A stretch of DNA of 64,000 bases from Oceanipulchritudo coccoides. Lineage in GTDB: Bacteria > Verrucomicrobiota > Verrucomicrobiia > Opitutales > Oceanipulchritudinaceae. Below the pieces are notes generated by a model. That model did no database searches. It was not told where the DNA came from and worked only from the letters and a program-made list of their open reading frames with translations. A program made the position numbers and the translations under genes. How positions within the stretch are numbered: position 1 is the stretch's first letter; each line of letters starts with the position of its first letter. The DNA is taken from positions 310,001-374,000 of the forward strand of contig NZ_JAAGNX010000003.1 in the NCBI RefSeq assembly GCF_010500615.1. The letters run 5' to 3'. Of this stretch, positions 1,991 to 58,077 are shown piece by piece.

Positions 1991-4900
1991 GTCATCGTTA
2001 TCGCCATAGATTGTTACATTGCCTGTTGTACTGATAAGCGATCCGGCCTCGAGTGTAACATCACCCCGGCCAAGCAAAGTGATCGGACCGCCGGTTGCTG
2101 ATGTAAGAGAGACCTCGCTGCCGATCAGCAACTCGGTCAAGCCACTGGAGGGACTCGTCGTGACGGTCGTGCTCAATGCGTTATCGGTGATGTTTACTTC
2201 TTCCACACCGGAATTGTAGGTCAGCTCGAAATTGTCCAGCAACACAGCCTGCGGATGTATGTAGAGCTGGAGGCCTGTCGAATCCAGATCAAGGTCAATT
2301 GAATCCACGCTACCCCCGTTATCCAAGATATTGATCCGGGAGAGATTCAGCGCGGCATCCGCCGGATCAAGATCCAAATCATAGGTATCGGCCCCGCCGG
2401 CATCCGTGATGAGGATTACTGGGATTGCAGGAATAGAGGGATTTACAGGGAACGCTGAGATGGCAAAGTCATCATTTCCTGATCCAAGCTTAAACGTCTT
2501 GATAGGAATGACATCATCAACAAAAAGGTAATTCCCAGTGCCCGCGCTGGCGGTGAATCCGGAATCGGTCAGGGCCGCATCCAGATTGTGAGTCATGGCG
2601 CTGAAATCCATGGTTTCAACGCCGAGGCCGTCCACGAGGTTGTCCGTTCCGTAGTCATTCCTGAATACATAGGTGTCGTCATTGGCCAGGCCTGTGATCA
2701 CGTCATTATCATCTCCACCCTCGATGGTGTCCCGCCCGGGCGATCCTAGAAGGATGTCCACCCCGTCACCGCCGCTCAGGATGTTAGTTTCCGTGATCAG
2801 GGTGAGCTGGTCAGTCCGACACTCATTTTCATCAAGCAGGTCATTGCCGATGCCACCATAGAGTTCATCATCTCCAAATCCACCCATCAACTTGTCGTTG
2901 CCGGCCTCGCCCTTCAGGATGTCGTCTCCGTCATTTGTGAAGACAATGTCATTACCGGATCCGGCTTCGACGTAGTCATCCCCACTGCCGGTTACAATCA
3001 CATCATTACCACCTGCCGCATATACATCCGTATCGATATCTATGCTATCCGGATCAAGGACAATGACTTCATCCGCCCCATTACCATTGATCACAATTTG
3101 GGTAACATCAGCGACATCAAAGCTCTGCATATTGGAGAAAGTGATGTTCCGGTAAATATTATCGGTGCTCTGCAAGCTCCAGGAGCTCCATTGGCCAAAG
3201 GGCGGCCAGCCGTCCCAATAGTAATACCGCGTGTAATAGCGCGACACCGCAACGAGGACACTATCGGTAAAATCAGGCGCATCGACAATGAGTTTCATTC
3301 CCTCCGATGTATCAACCACGGCCAAGGCCAACTCATTATCAATGGATGAGGTATTGTTGTTGGTGATCGTGAGGACACCGCTGGACGACAAACTGGTTGT
3401 GTAGGTGTACTGAGGATAAATGGTCTTTGCCTCGACCTCAGTCTTTTTGCTCTTGAACCAGCTGGCAATTTCATCAAACAGCCCCTCAAAGAAGTCACCG
3501 ATGTCCGTCAGGATTCCATCAATAAATTCAAGCACATCCTCACCGAATTCAAGGATAGCCTGACCGAGGGACGTGAGGGCATCCCACACGGCTTCTGCGG
3601 CATCCACAACTGCCTCTGCGACCGCTTCTGCAGCATCACCCAAGGCTTCAAGGACATCTTCAAGGAATCCGAGTCCACCAGTAATGGTGTAGGAGCCGTC
3701 GGCATTTCCAGAGACACGCAGCCAGACGCTGAGTGGACCTTCGACATAGATGGACCAGCTTCCATCGCCCCAATTGACCGTCAGTTCGGCCGCAGCGATG
3801 TTGAAACTTTCACCAAAGAGGACAATCGCCACGGAGCCACTTCCAGTAAAGCTCGTGTTTGTGATCGTGATCGAGAGATTTCCCGAAAGCCCGAAGCCCA
3901 TGTATGTAAGGTCCAAGGTCACCGTACCGGTGAAACGGAAAGTGACCGCTCCGCTACTGGATACGCTGAAGTATCCCTCAATGCTCACGAAGTCTTCACC
4001 ATAAAAGTCGAGTGTGGCCACCACATTGATGGCAAAGTTACCGTCCACCAGCCCGGCATAGATGAAACCGTTGGCGGTGAAGAAACCAAAGAGATCGATC
4101 TCGACATTAAAGGTCACCATGTAGGTGTTTCCGGTTACCGGGTGTCCAGTACCTTCAGCATCATAGACGGTTTTTAAACCTGTTCCTGAATTAATCTCCA
4201 GGATGGCAACTCCGTTAATATTAACGCCGATGACATTAAAATCGACGGCAACACTCAGGTAGGCGGCGAAGACTCCACCCTCAATCACGGCACCACCGTC
4301 AATATCCAGGGTAATGAAGCCACCAATGTCGATGTCGCCGTTGAAGCCCATCTCCAGTCCGAGGGAGCTAACCTTGAGCTGGAAGTCGGCGGTGATCACA
4401 AAGGCACTGACGATCGTCAGTTGCCCATTCAGGGATACGAGGAAGTATGAACCATCCGGTTCAAAGGTTCCGTCCAGTCTGGGCGCACCACCGCTGATTG
4501 TGAAGGTTGCCGATCCGTCCGTGTGTACGGTGAAACGGGAATCCAGGTCACCCTCACCCTCCACAACCAATCCTTCCAGGCCCGGGGAATCCGCAATTGT
4601 CGATCCTGGTATTTCACTCAGGTCTGTCACACCAGTCAGGTACTCAACAAACCGTGCTGGGATCGTGATCGACTGGTCTGAGCCAGTGTAGTTAAAAATC
4701 ACTCGCGCTGAGGCATTAAAGCTGATCACACTGCTCAAGGCCCCTCCAACCGAGAGGGATACATCAATATCCGCGGCAATTCCGTCGCCGTTGATGACGA
4801 GGGCACCGAGGGCACTCATGTTAAAAATCTTGCTACCCGGAATGGCCCCGATGTCCGGACCGATCTCGAGGGTTGCGGCAAGAAAGGCAGTCAGCCCGTT

Positions 4901-13105: not shown

Positions 13106-13987
13106 ATGAATAAATCTACAAGAATCTTCCTTTCCGGACTGTGCGCGACTCTGGTTGCTGCCAGCCACCAAATCCAAGCGGAATCAATCACCCTTGAGCC
13201 CTCGAAAGATAACTCGATGTTTGAGGAGGCTGATGAAAGCAATGGGCAGGGAACATACCTTTTTGCGGGCCAGACTGCCCCGCGTAACAATAGTGCCCGA
13301 CGCCGGGCCTTGCTCCAATTTGACCTCAACGGGCAAATTCCGGCGGGAGCGGTGATTGAATCGGTTTCCCTTGAGCTGAGCATGAACAAGACGATCACGG
13401 GCAACCAGGCCATGACCCTGCACAGGCTGGCAAAGGATTGGGGCGAAGGCGCCTCGGATGCATCAGGACAGGAGGGACGTGGCACAGCAGCCCAGGCAGG
13501 AGATGTCACATGGACTCATACTTTCTATTCCGACCAGTTCTGGTCAACTGTCGGGGGTGATTATGAGCCGACTCCATCAGCGACCCAGTCCGTGGCAGGG
13601 GGAACCGTATCATCCCCTGTGGTCTACACATGGAGCGACAAGGGAATGGTGGCTGACGTCCAGTCGTGGATTGAAGCCCCGGAAACAAATTTTGGTTGGA
13701 TCCTGATTGGTCTGGAGGGCGTCACCAGCGCCAAGCGGTTTTATAGTCGCGAGCATACTGTCGCAGCCCAGCGTCCACAATTGACCATCACCTTCAGCAC
13801 ACCTGGGGCGGGATGGGCTGGCTACTTGATCAGAGAAGACGGACGTAGTGTGGACACCGATGGCTGGATCGGTATTGTCGATGTTGCCAATGCTCCGTGG
13901 ATCTACAATTACACACTCGACAACTACCTCTACGCGCCCGAGGAAAACATCAACGAAGCGGGCGGCTGGCTCTGGGTCAGTAAGTAG
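13106..13987 (+). CDS. Exported DNRLRE-domain protein with W-rich C-terminal domain
   Basis: The 293-residue product starts with a signal peptide (MNKSTRIFLSGLCATLVAAS, likely cut after IQA). The body (about residues 25-232) has the hallmarks of the DNRLRE/CBM96-like beta-sandwich: an early SxDNSMFE strand, ARRRALLQFDL, a VESVSLELSM-like strand, a late WSDKGMVADVQSWI and GWILIGLEG, and a closing RPQLTITF. Family members are extracellular and associated with polysaccharide binding. Residues about 238-293 form a separate Trp/Tyr-rich domain (DTDGWIGIVDV, PWIYNYTLDNYLYAPEE, GGWLWV) that recurs at the C-termini of the proteins at 49037-49996 and 53132-53995. The methyltransferase gene follows after only 4 bases, so it may be co-transcribed with the polyketide cassette, though a functional link is not evident. 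Confidence 0.85.
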   Translation: MNKSTRIFLSGLCATLVAASHQIQAESITLEPSKDNSMFEEADESNGQGTYLFAGQTAPRNNSARRRALLQFDLNGQIPAGAVIESVSLELSMNKTITGNQAMTLHRLAKDWGEGASDASGQEGRGTAAQAGDVTWTHTFYSDQFWSTVGGDYEPTPSATQSVAGGTVSSPVVYTWSDKGMVADVQSWIEAPETNFGWILIGLEGVTSAKRFYSREHTVAAQRPQLTITFSTPGAGWAGYLIREDGRSVDTDGWIGIVDVANAPWIYNYTLDNYLYAPEENINEAGGWLWVSK

Positions 13988-15683: not shown

Positions 15684-16730
15684 ATGTATTTATTGTCACT
15701 CGAAACCGCAGATCCTGAGACCTTTTTTACGCAGCAGGAATGCCTCGAAATCTTCCTGCGCTCAAAAGCTCCCAAGAGGATGAGAAAACGCTCTGCCTTG
15801 CTTATGGAGAAAGTGCTCATGCGCAACAATGGCATTGGAAAACGCGGTTTTTCGTATCCGGAAATCGATACAATTTTTGATGCTAATCCGGGAAAACTGA
15901 ACCAGGTCTTCGAGCAGAAAGCCCCGGAACTTGGTACACGGGCGCTTGAGAAGGCCCTTGAAGCAGCCGGCATGTCACCCGATGAACTGGACGGGCTAAT
16001 CGTCTGCACCTGCACCGGCTACCTCTGTCCGGGGTTAAGCAGCTTCATTGCCCAACAGGTTGGTGTCCGGGACTCAGCGGAGTTGACCGATCTTGTCGGC
16101 ATGGGCTGCGGCGCAGCCATTCCTTCACTCAGACAGGCATCGCACCGGATTGCCGCAGACCCGGACAGCCGGATAGCCGTCATCGCAGTGGAAGTCTGTT
16201 CCGCCGCTTTCTATCTCGACGATGACCCCGGGGTCATCATCAGTGCCTGCCTTTTTGGTGACGGGGCCGCCGCCAGCATCTGGACAGGAAACGCCAAAGC
16301 CGGTGCATGGAAGGCGTCACGTTTTGACAGCCTGCATCTTCCGGATAAGCGACAGCTTCTTCGCTTTGAAAATGCCAATGGCGCACTGCGGAACCGGTTA
16401 AGCAAGGATATACCGGATGAGGCCGCCAAAGCCGTTCGCACGCTCTATGATGCATCGCTTAATCGAGGCATGAATCCCCATGGGCTTACCCTCCTCCCCC
16501 ACACCGGCGGACGCGATGTCCTCGACTCGATGGAAGAGGCCTTCCCCGGTGAGAAATTTCCTCTAAGCCGCAATGTCCTGAAGAACCATGGCAACATGAG
16601 CAGCCCCTCGGTCCTCTATGTGCTCAAGGAAGCCCTCAACAGTGGTGCAGATTCAAACCAACTCTGGCTGACCAGCTTCGGGGCAGGATTTACTGCCTAC
16701 TGTTGTTGTCTGGGACGAGAAACTTACTAA
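15684..16730 (+). CDS. Type III polyketide synthase (chalcone/stilbene synthase family)
   Basis: The 348-residue product is the usual length for a homodimeric type III PKS. The thiolase-fold catalytic triad is complete: Cys142 in DLVGMGCGAAIPSL, His273 in LLPHTGG and Asn304 in NHGNMSSPS. The CTCTGYLCPGLSSF and LFGDGAAASIW segments are further family signatures. These enzymes extend a fatty-acyl or aryl CoA with malonyl-CoA to give resorcinols, pyrones or related aromatics. The gene closes a cassette with a methyltransferase and an FAD oxidoreductase, 25 bases after the latter, and its stop overlaps by four bases the stop of the convergent FGE-fold gene. Phenolic lipid, quinone or pyrone formation is likely; the product cannot be predicted from sequence alone. 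Confidence 0.92.
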   Translation: MYLLSLETADPETFFTQQECLEIFLRSKAPKRMRKRSALLMEKVLMRNNGIGKRGFSYPEIDTIFDANPGKLNQVFEQKAPELGTRALEKALEAAGMSPDELDGLIVCTCTGYLCPGLSSFIAQQVGVRDSAELTDLVGMGCGAAIPSLRQASHRIAADPDSRIAVIAVEVCSAAFYLDDDPGVIISACLFGDGAAASIWTGNAKAGAWKASRFDSLHLPDKRQLLRFENANGALRNRLSKDIPDEAAKAVRTLYDASLNRGMNPHGLTLLPHTGGRDVLDSMEEAFPGEKFPLSRNVLKNHGNMSSPSVLYVLKEALNSGADSNQLWLTSFGAGFTAYCCCLGRETY

Positions 16731-43089: not shown

Positions 43090-43884
43090 TTACTTGCGTC
43101 GGCGCCGTACGACGAGGAAAGCCAGGACGCAAAGGCTTGTGACAAGGGCATAAGTTGATGGTTCAGGGACCACTTGGCTAAGACCCATTGACTCTAGTGT
43201 TAGGGAAGTCTCTGTAGACGTCCAGGCTCCACCCTTGGAATACACCCACCCGCTGATGCCATCACCGCTGAAGTCGGTGGCGGAGAATTCCTCAACTCCG
43301 TCCAGCAAGTACCGTACGGTGTCATTATCGAAATCAAATTCGATGGCCAAAGTGACGGCAGTAGACTGTGTGAGGCCGGTGCTATTATACTGACGGAAAT
43401 ACTGGGTTGCCCCGGCATTTGCAATTGTCGAAGCCCTGAGTCGCGTTGTGGAGGCTGTGTCGACCTGCCAGATGATATTGGCCACATTGGCACCTGTTGA
43501 GTCCTGGATCTTGAAATTCCATGTATCTCCGACACTCGCCGCATCGGCTGTCCAGCCGGCAAAGGTCACCTCGAACAGGTACTTCCCGGTCGTCAATGGA
43601 GAGGCGTAAAGGTTCGTCGTCCCGGCCTCATTTGCGCCATCCGGCAACTTCCTCGTGTAAACCCCTGCTCCACTACCAATTACAAACTGCCCCGAGCCGT
43701 TTGTCAGGTCTTCGGGCGTGTTGAAATTCCAGCTGCTTCCCAAACTTCCTGAATTTGAAAGGTCGTTGAGATCAGTCCCGGAGGAGTCACTTTCGAAATC
43801 CCAGTATTCCAGAGGGACTATTTGTCCTTGTGCCAAAGAAAATGACAGCAACAGGCAAAAGAGGAGGGATATGACTTTTTTCAT
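43090..43884 (-). CDS. PEP-CTERM sorted exported beta-sandwich protein
   Basis: The 264-residue product has a signal peptide (MKKVISLLFCLLLSFSLAQG) and ends with a complete PEP-CTERM signal: VVPEPSTYALV, a hydrophobic helix and RRRRK. Such tails are recognised by exosortase and anchor or secrete proteins with the extracellular matrix. The body (about 22-225) looks like a concanavalin-type beta-sandwich (EYWDFESDSSGTDLNDLSNS, FEVTFAGWTADAASVGDTWN, AIEFDFDNDTVRYLLDGVEE). It is near-identical over its first 240 residues to the N-terminus of the 659-residue protein at 44154-46133. No exosortase gene is in the window. Confidence 0.88.
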   Translation of the reverse strand: MKKVISLLFCLLLSFSLAQGQIVPLEYWDFESDSSGTDLNDLSNSGSLGSSWNFNTPEDLTNGSGQFVIGSGAGVYTRKLPDGANEAGTTNLYASPLTTGKYLFEVTFAGWTADAASVGDTWNFKIQDSTGANVANIIWQVDTASTTRLRASTIANAGATQYFRQYNSTGLTQSTAVTLAIEFDFDNDTVRYLLDGVEEFSATDFSGDGISGWVYSKGGAWTSTETSLTLESMGLSQVVPEPSTYALVTSLCVLAFLVVRRRRK

Positions 43885-46424: not shown

Positions 46425-48959
46425 TCAAGGGCTCCCGAAGCGGACAAAATACCGGTCCCCAATCATCGGGACAGTCACATTGTAGGTTCCATCGGGACTT
46501 TCAACAATTGTGGAATCGGCAGTGACGTCCGTGAAATCGCTAAGGTCCGTGCTTCCCAAGACGGTCCATGCAGTGCCGGCGGTACCCGTGAAATCGATGA
46601 TAAGGTTGCCGCCTGATACCTGAATGTCGGTCAAATCAAAGTTGAAGGTGTTGAGAGCGGCCGTACTAAAGACCACCTCGTCCAGCTCGATGAAGTCACC
46701 GGTCATGTCACCACTCCCCTCAAAGGGGAACAGCGCCCAACTGAATTGGCTGATGGTTTGGGCACTGATTCCCGGCGCGGAACCAGTGTAGGAAACAAAG
46801 CGGTCATTCCAGCCGCTACCATCGTCAGTGACTGGGTCCCCCATCCAGAAGGTGTAGGTCTCAGCATCGAGATTAAAGGTGAGCCCAACGGTAATCGCAG
46901 ACGAACCGGTCAGGCCCGAAGCCGCATAGCCGCCCTGGATGAGTTGGCCAGCGTTGCTGCCGTCATAATAACTACCTTGAAGGCGAAGATATTCCGTACC
47001 CCCACTGTCCTTGTAGGCCCTTACTTGTAAAAACATAATATTTTGGGCTGAATCATTCCGCAGCCTGATGCCGAAGCTTGAACCGCTACTGTTGTTGTTG
47101 AGGGCGGTATTGGAGAGGTCCCAGGCGGACAATGTAAACTGCAGAGTCACGGTATCAGTGTTACCGGCATTGATACCGAGGGGAGTATCGAAAATGTTCC
47201 CCGAAAATCCGGACGAGCGATTGACCGTGAAGGTATTGTCGAAGGCACCGCCGGTCTGGTCTGTATTGGTAACGGCAATGTTGGAATTTTCGAAAAAACT
47301 AGTCGGTGTGCCGTTAATGCCAATCAGGCTGTTGCCTGTGAAATCCCACTTCTCGACAACCACAGCGGAGGAAATCGTACTATTAACTGTGAGGACCAAC
47401 ACGTCATCTCCCTGCAGGCTGTAATCAAAAACTTGCGTCTCTCCGTCGTGGGTCACTGTGATTTCATAATCGCCCTTGAAGCCGCGAACGGTCCCCTGCC
47501 CGGTCGCATCAGCAAGAAAGGATTCATCGGTATTATAACGGATCCGGTGGAGATAATACCAAACCAGCCCGTTCAGTTTCACCGTTCCGTCATAATAGGC
47601 GAGAGCCTTTTCCTGTTCGTCTCCGTTATCCATAAACGTCCATGCGTTCAGGCCGGTGGCAAGGGGATGGCTAAAATAGGCGGTCAGGGTCTCCTCTGTG
47701 ATTTGTGCCCGTTCAAGTTCAGTAAAGTCATAGGGATACCAGTTGTCCAAAGGCCTGTCGACAATCTCAAATTCGGTACCGACCATCTCGAAGCCGTAGG
47801 CATTCCCCCATTCCTCAAGCCGGCTGTAGGTGGTGACCGGGTCAGGCACACCGGTCGTGTAGCGATTTTGGAAGCCAATCCTGTCAAGGGGGCCGCCATC
47901 GGCAAGGATTTGGTCGATCCTCGACTTGTAGGTGTCTCGCCGGATGCTGTACTTCAAAAAGTTGGGCGCGCCCGATTCTTCCGGGGCGGAAATGATTTTG
48001 TAGTCGTTTATCAACAGCTTGCAGTCCGGATTGACCTTGTTGGCATCGGCAATTTTGAACCATTCAGCCATCTGGTCGTATCCCATGATCTCCATCAGCA
48101 GGCGGTTATTGAGGGTTTCATTGATCACGTCCCACTCGTAGACATCCCAAAGGCCTGCCCATTGGCCGATCTCAGCATCAACCACTGCTTCCACCGCGTC
48201 CTTGTCCGCTTGTGTGCGGGTGCTGTCCTTGAAAGTAAGAACGGCCTGTTGGACATCGTAACTGACAACCCCCTCGTATCCGGGAATAGAATTCAACGAC
48301 TCCGGCCAGCCTTGGGACAAGTGCTTCCCATAATCCTCACCAATGATACTTCCAGGCGTATCCATTTCCTCAATACCTTGTGACCCCGGCCAGATAAGCA
48401 GATGTCCGCGCACGTCGAGCGAATTGGCATCAGCCCAGTCGAGGAAACCGGGCAGATATTCATGTAACCCCGCAAGCTTGGGCTTGAAGTTATTAGCTGT
48501 TCCCAACGCATTGAACAGGCCCTTCACCAGGCGCTCCCAGTCGGCTGTTGTGGAACCGGCAGATGAAAGGTCTCCATCTGCGTCCGTAAGGTCCTGTGCC
48601 TGGACCACCCCGCCGAACTTGAAAGCATTCTTTTTCAGCCGGACAGCCACTTCCGCCCCCTGCACGGGGAAGCCCAGCTCATCCACAACCTGTACATCCA
48701 GTTTTGCCTTGCGGTTCGCCTCAATCCGGGCTTCCGCATCAATGCGCCATTGGGGAAAGGGTGAATCCGGTTTGGCAATCTGGGCGAGGTCATTCTTTTC
48801 CGCCGTGCTCAGGGTGATACCCAGATCGGTCTCGATCTGCACAATTTCTTCCGTTGTCAGCGGTGCGGCTCGAACTTGTAAGACGGAAAAGGAGACTAGA
48901 ATTATCGATACAAATCCGCGCAGAATAAGCAGGGTTTCAGGACATCTTTTAAAGGTCAT
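46425..48959 (-). CDS. Secreted GH10 endo-1,4-beta-xylanase with C-terminal beta module
   Basis: From ATG 48959 the product is 844 residues with an N-terminal signal region (ILRGFVSIILVSFSVLQVRA). The GH10 (beta/alpha)8 barrel spans about 110-510: DVRGHLLIWPG, acid/base Glu281 in WDVINETLNN and nucleophile Glu396 in VGTEFEIVDRP, with LNAWTFMDNGD near its end. Residues about 535-765 form a beta module also present as the core of the protein encoded at 49037-49996, suggesting a carbohydrate-binding role. The last 70 residues carry the STDLSDF element. The enzyme cleaves xylan backbones outside the cell. A run of nine G (48963-48971) lies directly before the start. Confidence 0.92.
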   Translation of the reverse strand: MTFKRCPETLLILRGFVSIILVSFSVLQVRAAPLTTEEIVQIETDLGITLSTAEKNDLAQIAKPDSPFPQWRIDAEARIEANRKAKLDVQVVDELGFPVQGAEVAVRLKKNAFKFGGVVQAQDLTDADGDLSSAGSTTADWERLVKGLFNALGTANNFKPKLAGLHEYLPGFLDWADANSLDVRGHLLIWPGSQGIEEMDTPGSIIGEDYGKHLSQGWPESLNSIPGYEGVVSYDVQQAVLTFKDSTRTQADKDAVEAVVDAEIGQWAGLWDVYEWDVINETLNNRLLMEIMGYDQMAEWFKIADANKVNPDCKLLINDYKIISAPEESGAPNFLKYSIRRDTYKSRIDQILADGGPLDRIGFQNRYTTGVPDPVTTYSRLEEWGNAYGFEMVGTEFEIVDRPLDNWYPYDFTELERAQITEETLTAYFSHPLATGLNAWTFMDNGDEQEKALAYYDGTVKLNGLVWYYLHRIRYNTDESFLADATGQGTVRGFKGDYEITVTHDGETQVFDYSLQGDDVLVLTVNSTISSAVVVEKWDFTGNSLIGINGTPTSFFENSNIAVTNTDQTGGAFDNTFTVNRSSGFSGNIFDTPLGINAGNTDTVTLQFTLSAWDLSNTALNNNSSGSSFGIRLRNDSAQNIMFLQVRAYKDSGGTEYLRLQGSYYDGSNAGQLIQGGYAASGLTGSSAITVGLTFNLDAETYTFWMGDPVTDDGSGWNDRFVSYTGSAPGISAQTISQFSWALFPFEGSGDMTGDFIELDEVVFSTAALNTFNFDLTDIQVSGGNLIIDFTGTAGTAWTVLGSTDLSDFTDVTADSTIVESPDGTYNVTVPMIGDRYFVRFGSP

Positions 48960-48990
48960 TATGGGGGGGGGTTGGCAATTGGAAATCGGA

Positions 48991-49023
48991 AGTGGCAGAC
49001 CATAAGAATGACGGTCTGCCACT
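48991..49023 (-). terminator. Strong hairpin terminator after the gene at 49037
   Basis: AGTGGCAGACC (48991-49001) and GGTCTGCCACT (49013-49023) form a perfect 11-base stem with an 11-base loop. On the minus strand a TTCCGATTTCC stretch follows. It lies 13 bases past the stop of the 49037-49996 gene and 32 bases before the xylanase start, so it may attenuate read-through into the xylanase gene. Confidence 0.72.
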
Positions 49024-49036
49024 CCTTAAGAATTAT

Positions 49037-49996
49037 TCAGGGTGCGTAGACCCATCCCTTGCCCGCGTTGGCGGAGGCTTGGGGGACGTAAACATACTTA
49101 TCCAAGTCGAAACTCCATACCCAGGGATCCTGGTCGACCCATACCCAGCCGATCCAGTCGCCGGTATCAACGTAACCGCCCTCCCCGATCGGGAAACCGC
49201 CCCAGAAGCCGTCTCCGCCTCCTCCGGTGTAAGTGGTGGAGAAGATAACCTGGTCGAGCTCGAGAAAGTCACCGGTCATGTCGCCATTCCCCTCAAAAGG
49301 ACTGAGCCCCCAACCGAGTTGAGTGATGGTCTGGCTGCCAATTCCAGGGGCGTCGCCCGTGTAGCTGTTCAGCCGATTTACCCAACCGCTGCCATCATCC
49401 GTAGCGGGATCCCCGAACCAGAACGTGTAGGTTTCATTGACTAAATTGAAGGTCAGTCCGACCGTGATGGATGCGGACCCGGTCAAGCCGCCGACCCAAC
49501 CGCCCTGGATGAATTGTCCGCCGCCAGAGTTATTGTAGTAATTCCCCTGGAGACGCAAATAGGTTTGGCTGTCATTGGGGTCCTGCCAACCCCGCACTTG
49601 TATCTGCATGACATTCTGGTTTGAAGCATTGCGCAAACGGATATTGAAGCTGGAGTCGCTGCCTGGGCTATTGGAGACGTCCCATGCGGCCAGAGTAAAT
49701 TGCAGCGTCACGGTGTCTGTATTATCGACGCTGATGTTCAGCGGGTTATCCGAAAAGACATTGCCGGAGAAACCCGACGAACGGTTCACGGTGTAGGTGT
49801 TGTCAAACGCACCGCCGGTTTGATCAGCGTTTTGAACGGCAGAGGAGGCCGAGTCAAAGAAGGTGGTCGCTGTACCGTTTACCCCAATGAGGCTGTTGTC
49901 GGTAAAATCCCATTGTTCGACAATGGTCGTGGTCTGGGCAGTTGCGACAGATGCCGCAGCGGCCAGGAGAGTAATGCTTTTCAGGAGTTTATTCAT
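49037..49996 (-). CDS. Exported protein sharing the xylanase module, with W-rich C-terminal domain
   Basis: From ATG 49996 the product is 319 residues with a signal peptide (MNKLLKSITLLAAAASVATA). The body (about 25-255) is clearly homologous to residues 535-765 of the adjacent xylanase: EQWDFTDNSLIGVNGT, AFDNTYTVNRSSGFSGN, TFWFGDPATDDGSGW and GDMTGDFLELDQVIFST recur with few changes. A Gly linker leads to the W-rich terminal domain (VDTGDWIGWVWV, DPWVWSFDLDKYVYVP, GKGWVYAP). It has no catalytic motif. A non-catalytic xylan-binding or surface partner of the xylanase is the best inference. Confidence 0.87.
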   Translation of the reverse strand: MNKLLKSITLLAAAASVATAQTTTIVEQWDFTDNSLIGVNGTATTFFDSASSAVQNADQTGGAFDNTYTVNRSSGFSGNVFSDNPLNISVDNTDTVTLQFTLAAWDVSNSPGSDSSFNIRLRNASNQNVMQIQVRGWQDPNDSQTYLRLQGNYYNNSGGGQFIQGGWVGGLTGSASITVGLTFNLVNETYTFWFGDPATDDGSGWVNRLNSYTGDAPGIGSQTITQLGWGLSPFEGNGDMTGDFLELDQVIFSTTYTGGGGDGFWGGFPIGEGGYVDTGDWIGWVWVDQDPWVWSFDLDKYVYVPQASANAGKGWVYAP

Positions 49997-50508: not shown

Positions 50509-50807
50509 TTTTATTTCATTTGAGGTTAACAATATGGGGAGTTCGGCCATGGAATGACCAAAGGTGAATTGATCGGTTTTGAAACCACTTGTGCGATAAT
50601 AAAAGGGTCTGGTACATGGGTTGCTTGCAATGAATTTAAGCACTGATAAACGCATAGGGTTCTCTGCATAGACGCACCGCCTTGGGAGTTCTGGCATCTC
50701 TTCACCGAGTTCACAATATAAGCCCAAGGAGGAATAATTTCATTGGATGCAAAGCTTGTGGTGATGGCGCAGTTGCCAGAGTATACCAACTCAAAATTAC
50801 GCTACGC

Positions 50808-52883
50808 ATGCTCAAAAACTCCCTCCTGTTCATCCTCTTATTTTCCTCCACTGTTACTTTTGGGGACCGCCCCCGGCTGCTTCCTGCTGGAAACTACAAT
50901 GTCCTGTTCATTCCGATTGATGACTTCCGTGTATTGATCAACGCCTACGGGGAGACGGAGCCCCTGCGGCCCATCACGCCCAACATGGACCGGCTGACCG
51001 AACAGGGCGTCTCCTTCAGTAACGCACACTGCCAGCAGGCCGTCTGCAATGCCTCCCGGGCCAGCCTGATGACCGGCCTGCGACCGGACACCACCCGCTG
51101 CTGGAAGCTGGACACCTTTTTCCGCGACACGGTAGGCTATGACCTGAAAACCTTGCCCCAGCACTTTGCCGACCAAGGTTACTCCACTCACGGAATCGGG
51201 AAGATTTATCACAACACCAACAGCACCAGCCAGGACGACAATCCGAGCGGTGCCCGTTCCTGGAGCGATGGCTGGGATGCCAATGCCAAAGGTGCGCATG
51301 TCTGGTACGAAGCGGGAAAAGCCGCGCAGGAAGACGCCGGGGTGAAGAAAGTCTCCGCCACTGATGCCGGTGAGCTTGACCGGGCCGGTAACCCGATCAC
51401 CGACGAGGCCTACGACGATGGCGCTGCCGCGGCAGCTGGCGTAGCGAAGATCGGGACTTACGCTGCGGAATACAACTCCAGTGGCACACCCTTCTTTCTC
51501 GCAGTCGGGTTTAAAAAACCGCACCTGCCTTTCAATTGTCCAAAAGAGTATTGGGATCTCTATGATCCCGCACAGATTGACCTGACCGGATATGATGGCT
51601 CACACGACATGCCAGCCGGCACCAACCACTTCACAGCACCCTACGGCGGTGAGCCGGAGGCCTTTCTCGATGTCGATGGCCATCCAGATACCAAGGCTCC
51701 CGGGATCGACGACGCCCGCCACCTGATCCACGGTTACCTTGCTTGCGCCTCATTTATTGATACACAGGTGGGCAAGCTACTGGCTGCCTTGGAAGATCCC
51801 GATGGCAATCCAGCCACGGATGACTCCGTCGCCACGAACACCATCGTCATCCTTTGGAGCGATCACGGCTTTTTCCTCGGGGAACACAACGGTTTCTGGG
51901 CCAAGCATGCCAACTATGAAATCTCCACGCGGGTTCCACTGATAGTCAAGGCGCCCGGAATGGATGCATTGGGCTCATCCGGAAGCTTCTGTCCGGCCCC
52001 CGTTGAGCTTGTCGATATTTATCCGACGCTGGTTAATTTGTGTTCCCTGCCCGATCCAGTCCAACCCGCGGGGATGGAGTTGCAGGGTACCTCCTTCCTC
52101 CCCTTGCTCGAGGACCCCAAGCAACCCTGGAAAAAGGCGGCCTTCAGTCAGTACCAACGCTACATTAATGCCAACGGAAGCGGCGATGTTGCCATCGCTC
52201 ACAACGGCACCGGAATGGGTTACTCCATCCGGACAGCACGTTACCGCTACACCGAATGGTGGCGCACGGTCTCGAGCGACCAGACCCTTGACCTGCATGT
52301 GCCTGTCTATTCTTCACCTGAGCATGTTGAGTTGTATGACCATTTGGTTGATCCGGGGGAAACCGTCAACCTCGCTGCCCAGCCTGCCTATGCGGGACTT
52401 GTCACGGAGCTCTCCGCCCTCTTGAACGATACCGACAACACGTTTGCGGGAGACGGGTGGAAGCAGACAGAGGTCAACGCGCCCGCTGAATTTCCACTGG
52501 ATTACTCCTCGTGGTCGGATAGTTACGGGACGCCCGGTGTGCCCGCTGGTTCTCTGGATCTCTTCATTGATCCGGACGCCGATGGATGGATGAATATTTT
52601 TGAATACAAATTCGGGACACACCCGCTTGAGCCGGATCAGCCCGACATCAATTCATGGGTTGAAGATAACAAACTGGTCATGACCTATCCGGAAATTATT
52701 TCCCGCACCGATGCCAGCCTTGAGGTCTTCAAGTCAAATGACCTCTCCGCTGCCTCATGGAATCCAAGTGACTTGATTATTGAGGGGACCGGCTCCGCCG
52801 GAAACGCTGACATCCTCAAGGCGTCCTCACCACTTGCCGAAAGCCCTCTCTTCATACGCCTTCAGGCACAAACACTTCCTTAG
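50808..52883 (+). CDS. Exported sulfatase (iduronate-2-sulfatase-like)
   Basis: From ATG 50808 the product is 691 residues with a signal peptide (MLKNSLLFILLFSSTVTFGD). It shows the alkaline-phosphatase-superfamily sulfatase layout: metal Asp38-Asp39 in FIPIDDF, the formylglycine site Cys80 in AVCNASRASLMTGLRPD and WSDHGFFLGEHNGFWAKH with the Asp-His metal ligands. The active-site motif is C-N-A-S-R rather than C-x-P-S-R; alanine is a tolerated variant. A calcium-type loop DPDADGWMNIFEYKFGTHP occurs near 587-605 and a SNDLSAASW element near 643, both usual C-terminal add-ons of verrucomicrobial exported enzymes. It needs maturation by a formylglycine enzyme, which is not in the window. Confidence 0.93.
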   Translation: MLKNSLLFILLFSSTVTFGDRPRLLPAGNYNVLFIPIDDFRVLINAYGETEPLRPITPNMDRLTEQGVSFSNAHCQQAVCNASRASLMTGLRPDTTRCWKLDTFFRDTVGYDLKTLPQHFADQGYSTHGIGKIYHNTNSTSQDDNPSGARSWSDGWDANAKGAHVWYEAGKAAQEDAGVKKVSATDAGELDRAGNPITDEAYDDGAAAAAGVAKIGTYAAEYNSSGTPFFLAVGFKKPHLPFNCPKEYWDLYDPAQIDLTGYDGSHDMPAGTNHFTAPYGGEPEAFLDVDGHPDTKAPGIDDARHLIHGYLACASFIDTQVGKLLAALEDPDGNPATDDSVATNTIVILWSDHGFFLGEHNGFWAKHANYEISTRVPLIVKAPGMDALGSSGSFCPAPVELVDIYPTLVNLCSLPDPVQPAGMELQGTSFLPLLEDPKQPWKKAAFSQYQRYINANGSGDVAIAHNGTGMGYSIRTARYRYTEWWRTVSSDQTLDLHVPVYSSPEHVELYDHLVDPGETVNLAAQPAYAGLVTELSALLNDTDNTFAGDGWKQTEVNAPAEFPLDYSSWSDSYGTPGVPAGSLDLFIDPDADGWMNIFEYKFGTHPLEPDQPDINSWVEDNKLVMTYPEIISRTDASLEVFKSNDLSAASWNPSDLIIEGTGSAGNADILKASSPLAESPLFIRLQAQTLP

Positions 52884-53131: not shown

Positions 53132-53995
53132 ATGAAAAAGCTCATTACCCTTACACTGTTCACGACAGCCGCATTCGCTGTCAGCGCCCAATTCACCTAT
53201 CACGAATGGACATTTGACGACCCTGTCGGAACACTCCTTGAAGAAGCCGCCAATACGGGTGATCCGGGCACTGCGGCCTGGAACGCGGGCCTCACCCATA
53301 CAACCGATGGCGCGGGCAACTACCTGATCGGCAACGGGGATATTTCCCTTGGCTACAAAAGCGCCAACATCGGGCCATACGCGGGAACCCTGACCTATGA
53401 GATAGAAATTGATTCATGGGACCTCGATAATGTGGAAACCTTCCGGAATATCGAAATTCAGCTGCGTGATGCTGAAAACGCAAGCGATGTGGTAAAAGTT
53501 CAGGTCAACCAACAGGGCTCTGGAAACGTCCGTTTTCGTGTTTCGGATAATGCCGGACTCACCAATTTTGTATTTCCGGACTATGGAACACTCTCATCCG
53601 TCAGCCAGACAACCTATGTCATCTCCATCCAGCTCAACACAAACACGGGCGAATGGGAAACCAAGGTCAATGATGGTCCAGTGCAGGCAAGCGGTGTCGC
53701 CACGGTTGGCAGCCTCAATGTAATCCGCTTTGTCGTCGGGAATAATCCATATGGGACAGGTGACGACTTCTTCAAGGTGTCTCGCCTTTCCTTGTTCTCT
53801 ACAGAAGCGGCACCAGCAGCAGGCTGGTTTGGATACGATATCGAGGCAGACAATTGGGTCAACACAGGCGCCTGGCTCGGCTGGGTCAACATTACCAACG
53901 ACCCGTGGATCTATTTGGATGACTTGGCAGATTACATCTACCTTCCGGATGGCCAAGCGGCTGACGCGGGAGCCTGGCTGTACGTTATCAATTAA
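53132..53995 (+). CDS. Exported beta-sandwich protein with W-rich C-terminal domain
   Basis: The 287-residue product has a signal peptide (MKKLITLTLFTTAAFAVSA) and a lectin-like body (about 22-225; FTYHEWTFDDPVGTLLEEAAN, RNIEIQLRDAENASDVVKVQ, LNTNTGEWETKVNDG) that resembles in outline the PEP-CTERM protein at 43090. The last 57 residues are the W-rich domain (GWFGYDIEADNWVNTGAWLG, NDPWIYLDDLADYIYLP, GAWLYV). It lies between two sulfatase genes. No catalytic residues are evident; sugar binding or attachment to the cell surface is inferred. Confidence 0.85.
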   Translation: MKKLITLTLFTTAAFAVSAQFTYHEWTFDDPVGTLLEEAANTGDPGTAAWNAGLTHTTDGAGNYLIGNGDISLGYKSANIGPYAGTLTYEIEIDSWDLDNVETFRNIEIQLRDAENASDVVKVQVNQQGSGNVRFRVSDNAGLTNFVFPDYGTLSSVSQTTYVISIQLNTNTGEWETKVNDGPVQASGVATVGSLNVIRFVVGNNPYGTGDDFFKVSRLSLFSTEAAPAAGWFGYDIEADNWVNTGAWLGWVNITNDPWIYLDDLADYIYLPDGQAADAGAWLYVIN

Positions 53996-54048: not shown

Positions 54049-57000
54049 TCAGGAACGATTATCTACGGCTTGTTCAATCAGAAACCTCTTCAGCGCTGTA
54101 CGGAATTTTTCTGCAATCCCGGCGTAGCTTGCCTCGTCGATGATATTGACCGACTCAAGCGGATCCAATTCGTAGTCAAAAAGCTCCTCGGCGAGTGCGG
54201 GTTCCGAACCAACCGGAATTTCTCCCTTTGCCACTTCAAACCATGCCACGTAGCGGAAGCGTCCGCTCCGCAGGGCATAGCCCATTTTGTCTCCGCGTGG
54301 ATATTGGGACACGGCAAAGGCTTTCACTTCGGGTTTTGTCCCGTCAAGAATGGAGCCGAGGCTCGTTCCCTGGAGATGGTCAGGAACCGGCAATCCGGAA
54401 AGTTCAGCCAGCGTCGGAAAGATATCGACAAACTCAACGGGTGAATTGTTCACGCTGGCTTCCCCTACTCCGGGTCCAGCAAACATGAGCGGGGCCCGTG
54501 TGGCTTGTTCATAATTCGTATGCTTGCACCAAAGCCCGTGATCACCGAGGTGGAATCCGTGGTCACCCCAGAGAACGATGATCGTGTCATCCGCAACCCC
54601 TGCTTCCTGCAGTGCCTGCATCAACTTTTCGACTTGAGCGTCGATGTAGGAAACGCAGGCGTAATAGCCGTGGATAAGGGTTCTTTGCATCGCCTCATCA
54701 AGGGGACCCTTCGCCGGGATGCCTGAATAACTTCGAAGCTCGGGAAATGTGTGGTAAGCGTAATTCGGACTGCCTTTGGCACGTTTCTGGAAGGCCGCCA
54801 ATTCAATGGCTTCCCTGTCATAAAGCTCCCAATACTTCTTCGGGGCGACGAACGGCAGGTGGGGTTTTTTGAAACCAACCGCAATGAAGAACGGCTTTTC
54901 GCCACTTCCCAGTTCCTTGATCCACTGCACGCCTCGATCGGCGATAGCGCCATCTTCATATGCATTGTCGGGCACGTCCTCGCTCTCGTAAGGCAGCCAC
55001 GCATCACGATCCTTCAAATACTTGTTAACCACCCACCAGCCGGCCTCACCCGACGCCTCAGCCTCCTTTGCCCACTTCTTCGTCTGTGGATCCTGGTAAT
55101 GGGCGGCTGGTTGGCCGTACTCCGTGTTGAAGTCCAATTCCCATGTCTTGCCGAAGGGCAGGCTCCACGAAACACCGTCCACTTCATTGTCAACGGACCG
55201 CGGATCGAAGATTTTGCCAACACCGGCTGTCTCGTAGCCGTTTTCCTTGAAGTACTGTGGAAGTGTGACGATCTCCGGACGAATGTCCCGGATCTGTGTT
55301 TTCAAATCCCAAACCCGGGTATAGTCGGGACGCATGCCCGTCAACAGACTGGCACGGGATGGCCCGCAGACAGCTTGTTGGCAATGCGCATTTAGAAAAG
55401 TCGTGCCCTGCGCCGCCAGGCGATCCATCGCCGGTGTGTGCAGGCCTTCCCCATAGGCCCCAATTGCCGGCTTTAAATCATCAACCGCAATGAAAAGGAC
55501 ATTCTTCTTTTTTGCCGGCGCCTCGCGGAGGAGGAAGCCCAGATTGTCAAAGTAGATTTCCCCGCTCACTGGTTTCTTTGACTGGATCTGGAACCGGACC
55601 CCATAAAGCCGGGCCATCGCCTTCAGACGCATCGGGTCGCTTATCTCAATTGAGTAGTGCTTCCACTCGCCTCTCATGGCTTCGAGCGGGATTGATCCGA
55701 TCAACATCCAGTGGTCAGCCTCACTCTGCAGGACAATATTCACCTGCGCACCCGGATCGTCACATTTAAAATCAGGGGAAGCCTGCATTTCTCCAACGAC
55801 GCCGCCAATCCGGTCAAGCGGCAGGCTGTCGGGAAATTTTTCCAGAAGCATCAACACATCTGCGTTATTCCCCGGTGTAGCACCATCCAGAATCGCTTCG
55901 GCAACAAACTCATTCGGCTTTACGGAGGGCTCCATACCAATTTCAAATGTGGCCGTGGCTCCCCACTCGGATATTGGATTGTCAAATGTCCAGAGTACGC
56001 TTGGACGCGACTCGACCGCCTCAAGAAGGACAGTCCCGGAAACCGCAAGATCCCCACTTGATGCACTCAGTTTCAGGGCACCGGGTGAATTCACTTCGAT
56101 AAAGGTTTTGGCCACGGACTGTTTGAGAAATAATTCCTCTGCTTCGGCATCGACAGATCCCTCAAGTTTGAGCGCAACAGGGCCCAGCTCGCCGGAATAC
56201 GGTCTTTCATTCGTTGTGTCCCATGCCACGATCCACACTTCGAGCGGTAGATCTGCTGGCGCAGTCTCAGGAATCACAAGTCGTAGCTCGGGCTCACCAT
56301 CGGTTTCAACGGTTGGAACAGCTGAAGGCTGTGATCCTTTGTATGGTAATTCCACTACACGGATCGAAAATGCCGGGACCTCAATTGTCCTGGTTGCCTC
56401 GGGAGAAAATGCGGTCACGGTTGGCGGAAGGCTCCAAAGAGGCTCATGATGATGCGGGTCCCAGAAGTATTCCTGACGGGAGAAAGTGATCAGGCGCCCT
56501 TCACCCGACAGTTCAATTGTTTCGGGTAAGTTGAGCTCCACGCTTGCAGGGGCCGTTTCCGATTTATTGATCAGCATGACTTGCAGGCCTGTTTCTGACT
56601 GGGTTGTGAACACTTCCAGGTCCTCCCCTCCGGCAAGGGAATGCGCCGCCAATCGATCGCCCATGTAATGCCCCCAGATGTACTGGGCCCAAAAGAGACT
56701 TGTCGGAATCAGTTCATCCGCCTTTGGGAAGAAAGCTCCATGCCCGCCCTCCGGGGTACGGGTCAGCAAATCCCATTGATTCGAGAGCGTGACTTCCCCC
56801 TCCAGCATTGCCCCAATCCAGGTTGCGGACCAAAGTGAGTTGATCAGGTCAGCCGTGTCGCGGTCCTCGTTGACCTTCATATTCCACTCGGTGATGCCAA
56901 TTTCAATCTCCTTGTAGCGATCGGGTTGATACTGTTTCTTCCAACCCCGCAACTTCGCAAGGGCATCGCGAAGCAAGTCAATATCCTTGAACTTCTCCGC

Positions 57001-57846
57001 GGTATCGGTCCGCTGCACACCCACCGGGTAGGCATGAAAGGTGACAAAATCGACATACTCGCCCGCGTCACGGATCAGTTCCTCGATAAAAGCGAGGCTC
57101 AAATCGGAGCTTGCCGGTCCGCCGACCTTGATTGATGGATCAATGGCCTTGAGAGCCTTGGCATATTCGATAAACTTTTGGGCGTAGATCTCCCCGGTCA
57201 TTCCAGTCCCATCCGGCAGGAAGTGCCCGACTTCCCACTGACCATTAAGTTCATTTCCGATCTCCCAATTGGGAACAGAGTAGCCTTGCTCTATTGTCCA
57301 CTTGAGCCATTCCGCCGCCATTTCAGGAGTGCCAGTCCCCACATTAACAGTGACCATCTGGTCTGCCCCGAGGGACTCAGCCAGCTCGTGCTGTGTCCGG
57401 ACATCAATGACGCCGTGGTAGTCAGAGAGCTCCTGACTGGTTCCGTGGATACGGAATCCGGGCGCATACCCTGAATAATCAACTTCCCAGCGACCGTTTT
57501 TGAAGGCCTCGTGGTTGAAAGTGTTTTTCCCAGTCCGGACACCGTTCCCGTTCCAATAGTATTCATTTGACCAGGATCCCCCCGGAAGCCGGATCAGGCC
57601 AGGAGACCACTTCTCCAGATATTTTTGAAATCCGGGCTTGGCCAAGTCCACAGGCTCATACCAAAGCGCGAGATTTGTACCCAATAAATGAGACAGATCA
57701 ACCGGGCTACCGGAATCAGTCGGTTCCAAGGTCAAACGCGCTGAGGAAGAATAGAGCGCCTGAACGGATAGGATCTGAATCAGGACAAGCAGAAATCCAG
57801 CCATGGGGCAGATTGCTGGGAGTTTTGGTTTTTTAAAGGTTTCCAT
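54049..57846 (-). CDS. Glycosidase-sulfatase fusion enzyme, exported
   Basis: From ATG 57846 the product is 1265 residues with a signal segment (MAGFLLVLIQILSVQA); upstream ATGs up to 57924 exist. Residues about 30-500 form a clan GH-A glycosidase of GH39/GH51 type: GLIRLPGGSWSNEYYW, acid/base Glu199 in NWEIGNELNG and nucleophile Glu320 in IGITEWN, followed by a beta domain. A beta-sandwich linker with carbohydrate-binding look occupies about 500-770 (WTFDNPISEWGATATFEIG). A complete sulfatase follows from about 775: LFIAVDDLKPAIGAYG, Cys827 in AVCGPSRASLLTGMRPD and LWGDHGFHLGDHGLW. The combination in one chain implies that one polymer is desulfated and cleaved together. It is convergent with the gene at 53132. 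Confidence 0.92.
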   Translation of the reverse strand: METFKKPKLPAICPMAGFLLVLIQILSVQALYSSSARLTLEPTDSGSPVDLSHLLGTNLALWYEPVDLAKPGFQKYLEKWSPGLIRLPGGSWSNEYYWNGNGVRTGKNTFNHEAFKNGRWEVDYSGYAPGFRIHGTSQELSDYHGVIDVRTQHELAESLGADQMVTVNVGTGTPEMAAEWLKWTIEQGYSVPNWEIGNELNGQWEVGHFLPDGTGMTGEIYAQKFIEYAKALKAIDPSIKVGGPASSDLSLAFIEELIRDAGEYVDFVTFHAYPVGVQRTDTAEKFKDIDLLRDALAKLRGWKKQYQPDRYKEIEIGITEWNMKVNEDRDTADLINSLWSATWIGAMLEGEVTLSNQWDLLTRTPEGGHGAFFPKADELIPTSLFWAQYIWGHYMGDRLAAHSLAGGEDLEVFTTQSETGLQVMLINKSETAPASVELNLPETIELSGEGRLITFSRQEYFWDPHHHEPLWSLPPTVTAFSPEATRTIEVPAFSIRVVELPYKGSQPSAVPTVETDGEPELRLVIPETAPADLPLEVWIVAWDTTNERPYSGELGPVALKLEGSVDAEAEELFLKQSVAKTFIEVNSPGALKLSASSGDLAVSGTVLLEAVESRPSVLWTFDNPISEWGATATFEIGMEPSVKPNEFVAEAILDGATPGNNADVLMLLEKFPDSLPLDRIGGVVGEMQASPDFKCDDPGAQVNIVLQSEADHWMLIGSIPLEAMRGEWKHYSIEISDPMRLKAMARLYGVRFQIQSKKPVSGEIYFDNLGFLLREAPAKKKNVLFIAVDDLKPAIGAYGEGLHTPAMDRLAAQGTTFLNAHCQQAVCGPSRASLLTGMRPDYTRVWDLKTQIRDIRPEIVTLPQYFKENGYETAGVGKIFDPRSVDNEVDGVSWSLPFGKTWELDFNTEYGQPAAHYQDPQTKKWAKEAEASGEAGWWVVNKYLKDRDAWLPYESEDVPDNAYEDGAIADRGVQWIKELGSGEKPFFIAVGFKKPHLPFVAPKKYWELYDREAIELAAFQKRAKGSPNYAYHTFPELRSYSGIPAKGPLDEAMQRTLIHGYYACVSYIDAQVEKLMQALQEAGVADDTIIVLWGDHGFHLGDHGLWCKHTNYEQATRAPLMFAGPGVGEASVNNSPVEFVDIFPTLAELSGLPVPDHLQGTSLGSILDGTKPEVKAFAVSQYPRGDKMGYALRSGRFRYVAWFEVAKGEIPVGSEPALAEELFDYELDPLESVNIIDEASYAGIAEKFRTALKRFLIEQAVDNRS

Positions 57847-58077
57847 GGGTAGTTTAGGAAATAACCTACCCTGCAAGAGGGTCTTCGCAATTTCTTTCTT
57901 CATTGATACTGTCAGCCTATACAATGAATTAGCGAACTATATTAGACTGGAAAGTCTGCGCCATTTTCATCATAAATCCGATGAAAGCGTGCGCATAATC
58001 ATTCAACCGAATTACTATTTCACTGATTAAACACATTGAACACGGTATCATTCTTCTGAAACAATCTGAACATCCCC

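Follow-up and report, generated by a model that had tools for sequence, protein, structure and literature searches.

Results

The three tails of the window and their genes

The window, i.e. the whole analysed stretch of 64,000 nucleotides, covers C3:310001-374000 of the 3.52 Mb genome of Oceanipulchritudo coccoides. Three of its genes encode proteins ending in a common tryptophan-rich (W-rich) tail of ~57 residues (Table 1). In the alignment of the three tails, 16 of ~59 columns were invariant, including W, G, V, T, W, G, P, W, L, Y, Y, P and the last W, and copies 2 and 3 were 43-44% identical to copy 1. The shared pattern was WxGY ... VDTGxWLGWv ... PWIYsxxLxxWxYxP ... GaWxY-PR-stop. The common C-terminal domain of the original prediction is therefore real.

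All three proteins begin with plain signal peptides, as read from the sequence (MNKSTRIFLSGLCATLVAASHQIQA, MKKLITLTLFTTAAFAVSA and MNKLLKSITLLAAAASVATA). The DNRLRE domain of P0001 matched NF033679 with an E value of 2.3e-19. The description of the three proteins as unrelated held in part: the passengers of P0003 and P0002 were weakly similar (E 0.002 in a single comparison) and may belong to one lectin-like family. No xylanase-type module, previously assigned to P0003, was found in this protein; the GH10 xylanase is encoded by the gene that follows P0003 on its strand after a gap of 15 bases.

The P0002 gene follows a sulfatase gene and faces a sulfatase/GH fusion, after which the genes of a sugar transporter and a TonB receptor are located. 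Judged by the gene neighbours of P0002 and P0003, two of the three tails appear to lie in a sulfated-polysaccharide cluster. Two further genes of the window were recorded near P0001. A type III polyketide synthase gene is situated shortly after it, and the reverse strand carries an open frame that extends beyond the window start and exceeds 4268 residues. This frame begins with MGKQLTDVKNFQLEGLEPRLLLSADG, which we take to be LEPR-XLL-like, contains GNDxL-type repeats and probably encodes a giant surface protein.

Table 1. Positions of the W-rich tails, their proteins and neighbouring genes in the window.
Feature	Position	Strand	Remark
Open frame > 4268 residues	2-12805	-	GNDxL-type repeats
P0001, exported DNRLRE-type protein	13106-13987	+	signal peptide, DNRLRE domain, W-rich tail
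W-rich C-terminal domain, copy 1	13805-13984	+	end of P0001
Type III polyketide synthase gene (chalcone/stilbene synthase-like)	15684-16730	+
PEP-CTERM protein (..VVPEPSTYALVTSLCVLAFLVVRRRRK)	43090-43884	-	alternative tail; E 0.015, below the Pfam cut-off
Polysaccharide-use cluster	46425-63114		genes of GH10, an MFS sugar transporter, a TonB receptor plug protein and two sulfatases, one as a fusion with a GH39/79-like domain; includes P0003 and P0002
GH10 gene	46425-49022	-	after P0003
P0003, exported lectin-like protein	49037-49996	-	W-rich tail at end; strand absent from the original prediction
W-rich C-terminal domain, copy 2	49043-49216	-	end of P0003
Sulfatase gene	50682-52883		before P0002
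P0002, exported lectin-like protein	53132-53995	+	W-rich tail at end
W-rich C-terminal domain, copy 3	53816-53992	+	end of P0002
Sulfatase/GH fusion	54049-57924		faces P0002

Copy number and taxonomic range

The profile of the three window tails matched 46 places in the own genome, 38 of them at E <= 1.6e-5. Since 35 of the latter lie beyond the three seeds, almost always at the end of an ORF with a signal peptide, the likeness of the window tails is not due to chance. With the refined profile of 35 tails, 42 copies at E <= 1e-3 were detected on about 38 proteins. The tail was present in 16 of the 17 genomes of the source family (Opitutales, Verrucomicrobiota) with 2-42 copies each, and the single genome lacking it was small and 80% complete. 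Outside the family, only one of 372 genomes of the order (G442) contained it, with three copies at E <= 1e-6. In the phylum scan, the short tail was found in four of 387 genomes, all four from the source family. The short form is therefore a lineage-specific expansion. The collection scan for relatives was performed with a six-row alignment as the query, and the genomes of the relatives were mostly metagenome assemblies; the named relatives carrying the short tail were Opitutales/Verrucomicrobia assemblies of this type.

Consensus, composition and predicted fold

The consensus of 87 tails was W-[AG]-G-[YF]-x-[IV]-x-x-[DN]-G-[WY]-[VA]-D-T-G-x-[WF]-[LM]-G-W-[LV]-[YN]-V-x-x-[AD], directly continued by P-W-[VI]-[YW]-S-x-x-L-x-x-W-[IL]-Y-x-P-E ... 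G-[AG]-W-x-[YF]-x-P-[RK]-stop, the last W being invariant. The Trp content was 8.9% in the tails and 2.5% in the passengers. The tails contained 6.4% Tyr and almost no Cys, and their mean net charge was about -6.

AlphaFold2 modelling with 15 sequences resulted in an all-beta structure for a 68-residue tail of the window (pLDDT 76) and for the relative L052 (pLDDT 84, pTM 0.69). The structure prediction proposed earlier as a check thus gave the model of an all-beta domain. In Foldseek searches of two tail models against PDB the best E value was >= 5.5, the VIA comparison of the first model gave Z < 2, and the viral structure models contained no fold match; as small beta models match poorly in such searches, the absence of a PDB match does not establish a new fold.

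The comparison of the short tails with Pfam, NCBIfam and PDB sequence families yielded chance matches only. No attachment or CBM family was matched in Pfam by 35 short and 5 long tails up to E 1, which includes choline-binding repeats, SLH, CBM and other named attachment domains, and no Por secretion-tail model of NCBIfam or Pfam matched among the 35 tails. The view that the tail belongs to no named family was upheld by these searches. With the terms searched, such a tail was not mentioned in the PEP-CTERM papers or in the paper on cultivated soda-lake Opitutales (PMC13274419).

A longer W-rich relative

A second C-terminal domain without a name, ~92 residues long (alignment A7; loci L038, L039, L040 and L214-L263), was traced from weak matches in other families. 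In contrast to the short tail, it is built of several W-rich hairpin units (PWIYHxxLGWLY ... LGWLWT ... YPYLYS ... WFYDF) and is distributed more widely in Verrucomicrobiota, occurring in at least 9 of 387 phylum genomes from several families, with scoring of the 13 best candidates of each genome. The two forms were related in the hhalign profile comparison (96%, E 4.6e-9 over 37 columns). Like the short tail, the long domain is mostly C-terminal, ending <= 10 residues from the protein end in 44 of 53 sampled proteins, and had no match in Pfam, NCBIfam or PDB. At E <= 1e-3, the long-domain profile matched 41 times in the own genome. Roughly one in three of these matches was weak or hit a short tail again, and the domain was assigned to about 28 further proteins. 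Together, the short and long forms are present on some 65 proteins of the own genome.

Passengers and placement of the tail

The passenger enzymes comprised GH16, GH10, GH26, GH76, GH88, heparinase-like enzymes, FGE-sulfatase and S9 peptidase, and lyases were also among the passenger classes. Other passengers were CBM6/35/96, lectin-like domains, CotH with a lamin-tail domain, DUF4465, the choice-of-anchor Q domain and an eight-heme cytochrome c (L145, G000:C3:665501-671500, protein at 2205-3914 on the minus strand), the W-rich tail of which is located at its end. The expected association with exported proteins was supported: 93 of 103 full-length tail frames were positive by a signal-peptide rule, a crude one that also accepted 12 of 23 other window genes, and by eye the N-termini were signal-peptide-like in nearly all tail proteins.

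In 102 of 110 distinct proteins, the polypeptide ended <= 6 residues after the domain. The last residues were conserved, R or K being the final one in about half of the tails. Two tandem copies were found in 16 of the 110 proteins, some of the second copies being partial. In two proteins (L173 of G009, L170 of G004) the domain came immediately after the signal peptide and formed the start of the mature protein, and in two others (L165 and L167, both of G004) it was internal, ahead of Fn3 domains. The tail is thus a mobile module as proposed, but its fixation at the extreme C-terminus, though valid for most proteins, was not supported in view of the internal and N-terminal copies of two genomes and the tandem duplicates. 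The N-terminal, internal and tandem copies speak for a binding or attachment domain and against a sorting signal bound to the C-terminus. Unrelated exported passengers, N- or C-terminal position and frequent tandem copies, the features of non-covalent surface attachment domains as a class, were all observed.

Exchange with PEP-CTERM and relation to exosortase

PEP-CTERM (PF07589, TIGR02595) is an established sorting tail (PMC1569441). The own genome contained 16 PEP-CTERM matches over the cut-off and 3 exosortases, in agreement with the suggestion that the two tails are used side by side. The same genomes contain both, joined to the same passenger domains. Among 106 W-tail passengers, 15 had a homologue in a sample of roughly 60 PEP-CTERM proteins; the count has no background rate and is a lower bound, because the PEP-CTERM proteins of the relatives were sampled and not fully enumerated.

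The closest pairs were encoded by adjacent genes. In G008:C219, a W-tail gene of 610 residues is followed by a PEP-CTERM gene of 331 residues with passengers 73% identical over 237 residues, and the passengers of the neighbouring W-tail and PEP-CTERM genes in G005:C35 were 57% identical over 188 residues. Pairs within the own genome were L037/L122 (39% over 315), L023/L138 (46% over 226) and L021/L112 (37% over 183, genes a few kb apart), whereas L001/L107 is a pair between genomes. A related PEP-CTERM protein, 40% identical to P0001 of the window over 237 aa, was found in a different family of the order, and P0002 was weakly homologous to a PEP-CTERM protein of the own genome (E 8e-7, 27% identity over 232 aa). 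Homologous passengers with either tail are the strongest sign that the role of the W-rich tail is of the same kind as that of PEP-CTERM. The exchange points to a common class of passengers, from which the same final location does not follow.

The two tails differ in their build. The PEP-CTERM layout consists of a Pro-Glu-Pro motif, a transmembrane helix and a basic cluster at the C-terminus. This layout was absent from the alignment of 87 tails, and no membrane helix was detected, a hydrophobic 19-residue window (above 1.6) occurring in 1 of 102 tails. The W-rich tail, in contrast, is ~57 residues long, acidic and predicted to be folded, and may be duplicated, internal or N-terminal.

Exosortase was found in 15 of the 17 family genomes. 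Unlike PEP-CTERM, the W-rich tail was also present where exosortase was not found: G011 (94% complete) carried the tail with no exosortase and no PEP-CTERM match. G004 had 28 tails and one weak PEP-CTERM match. The tail therefore appears not to need exosortase. A co-occurring processing or anchoring gene, which had been anticipated, was not identified among the 17 family genomes, a small set for phyletic profiling with a single tail-less member, itself 80% complete; exosortase tracked poorly with the tail.

Discussion

The W-rich tail is mobile, usually terminal, sometimes duplicated or N-terminal, carried by unrelated exported passengers and exchanged with PEP-CTERM, which argues for its function in surface retention. 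Because it is swapped with a known sorting tail, it probably retains exported proteins on the outside of the cell, by an as yet unstudied mechanism. We put the probability at about one half that it is a mobile, non-covalent surface-retention domain that stands in for PEP-CTERM and does without exosortase. Of the earlier wording, a surface-attachment or sorting domain, attachment is favoured by the N-terminal, internal and tandem copies, which speak against an obligatory C-terminal signal.

The tail would be an independent small all-beta domain, acidic and rich in W and Y, keeping exported proteins outside the cell. Its proteins are predicted to cross the inner membrane by means of their signal peptides and may pass the outer membrane by a general route, a type II-like system being the obvious candidate. 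The folded tail would then bind a common surface ligand non-covalently, most likely a cell-surface or matrix polysaccharide. It would act like the cell-wall-binding modules of Gram-positive bacteria, beside the PEP-CTERM/exosortase route and interchangeable with it. Choline-binding repeats, SLH and GW modules are small, often W/Y-rich non-covalent anchors of Gram-positive surface proteins, which are C- or N-terminal, duplicated and carried by unrelated passengers. The W-rich tail resembles them in its size, W/Y content, duplication and variety of passengers, but its host is Gram-negative and no Pfam sequence match was found. With PEP-CTERM it shares the C-terminal position, many paralogous copies per genome and diverse signal-peptide proteins.

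Three other functions are possible, of which binding of the substrate comes first. As a carbohydrate-binding module, the tail would take enzymes and lectins to the food polysaccharide, for which the W/Y-rich face of a small beta domain is suited; glycoside hydrolases, lyases and CBM proteins are numerous among the passengers, and two window copies belong to the cluster with sulfatase, GH10 and TonB receptor genes. However, one and the same tail is found on enzymes for differing polymers (GH16, GH10, GH26, heparinase-like) as well as on the eight-heme cytochrome, S9 peptidase and CotH, which have no such substrate. As the passengers swap the tail for PEP-CTERM, which is no CBM, and the tails match no CBM family, we consider this function unlikely.

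A slightly less likely function is that of a C-terminal secretion signal for a dedicated outer-membrane translocon, possibly removed later. The T9SS C-terminal domain of Bacteroidota is a C-terminal beta domain of many exported enzymes, and the W-rich tail is similar to it in these respects. The predominance of the extreme C-terminal position (102/110), the conserved last residues and the expansion restricted to the lineage fit such a signal, but copies in tandem, inside the protein or immediately after the signal peptide do not: unlike in the T9SS domain, the C-terminal placement is not obligatory, and the sequence and the phylum are different. An SprA-like translocon was found in 0 of 17 genomes, in a search run without a positive control. 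A role of the tail as a ligand-free structural cap or stability domain, multiplied as genes were duplicated, is improbable, since the aromatic pattern is strongly conserved on unrelated passengers and the tail is exchanged with an established sorting tail, even though small exported proteins are strongly amplified in this lineage.

Returning to surface retention, it is quite possible, though we hold this somewhat more tentatively than the function of the tail itself, that the short and long tails together represent a protein-localisation system of Verrucomicrobiota that has gone unrecognised. Serving ~65 proteins here, more than PEP-CTERM, and working without exosortase, it would keep the extracellular polysaccharide-degrading machinery on a shared surface glycan. 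In the case of the eight-heme cytochrome, the tail would put a redox protein at the cell surface.

The domain bears on how exoenzymes are retained by Gram-negative polysaccharide degraders without a secretion and anchoring system of the Bacteroidota type. It provides a sequence handle on ~38 exported proteins of one genome (~65 with the long form) that had no named C-terminal domain, and the adjacent genes with a common passenger and a different tail, PEP-CTERM or W-rich, are a ready-made natural experiment.
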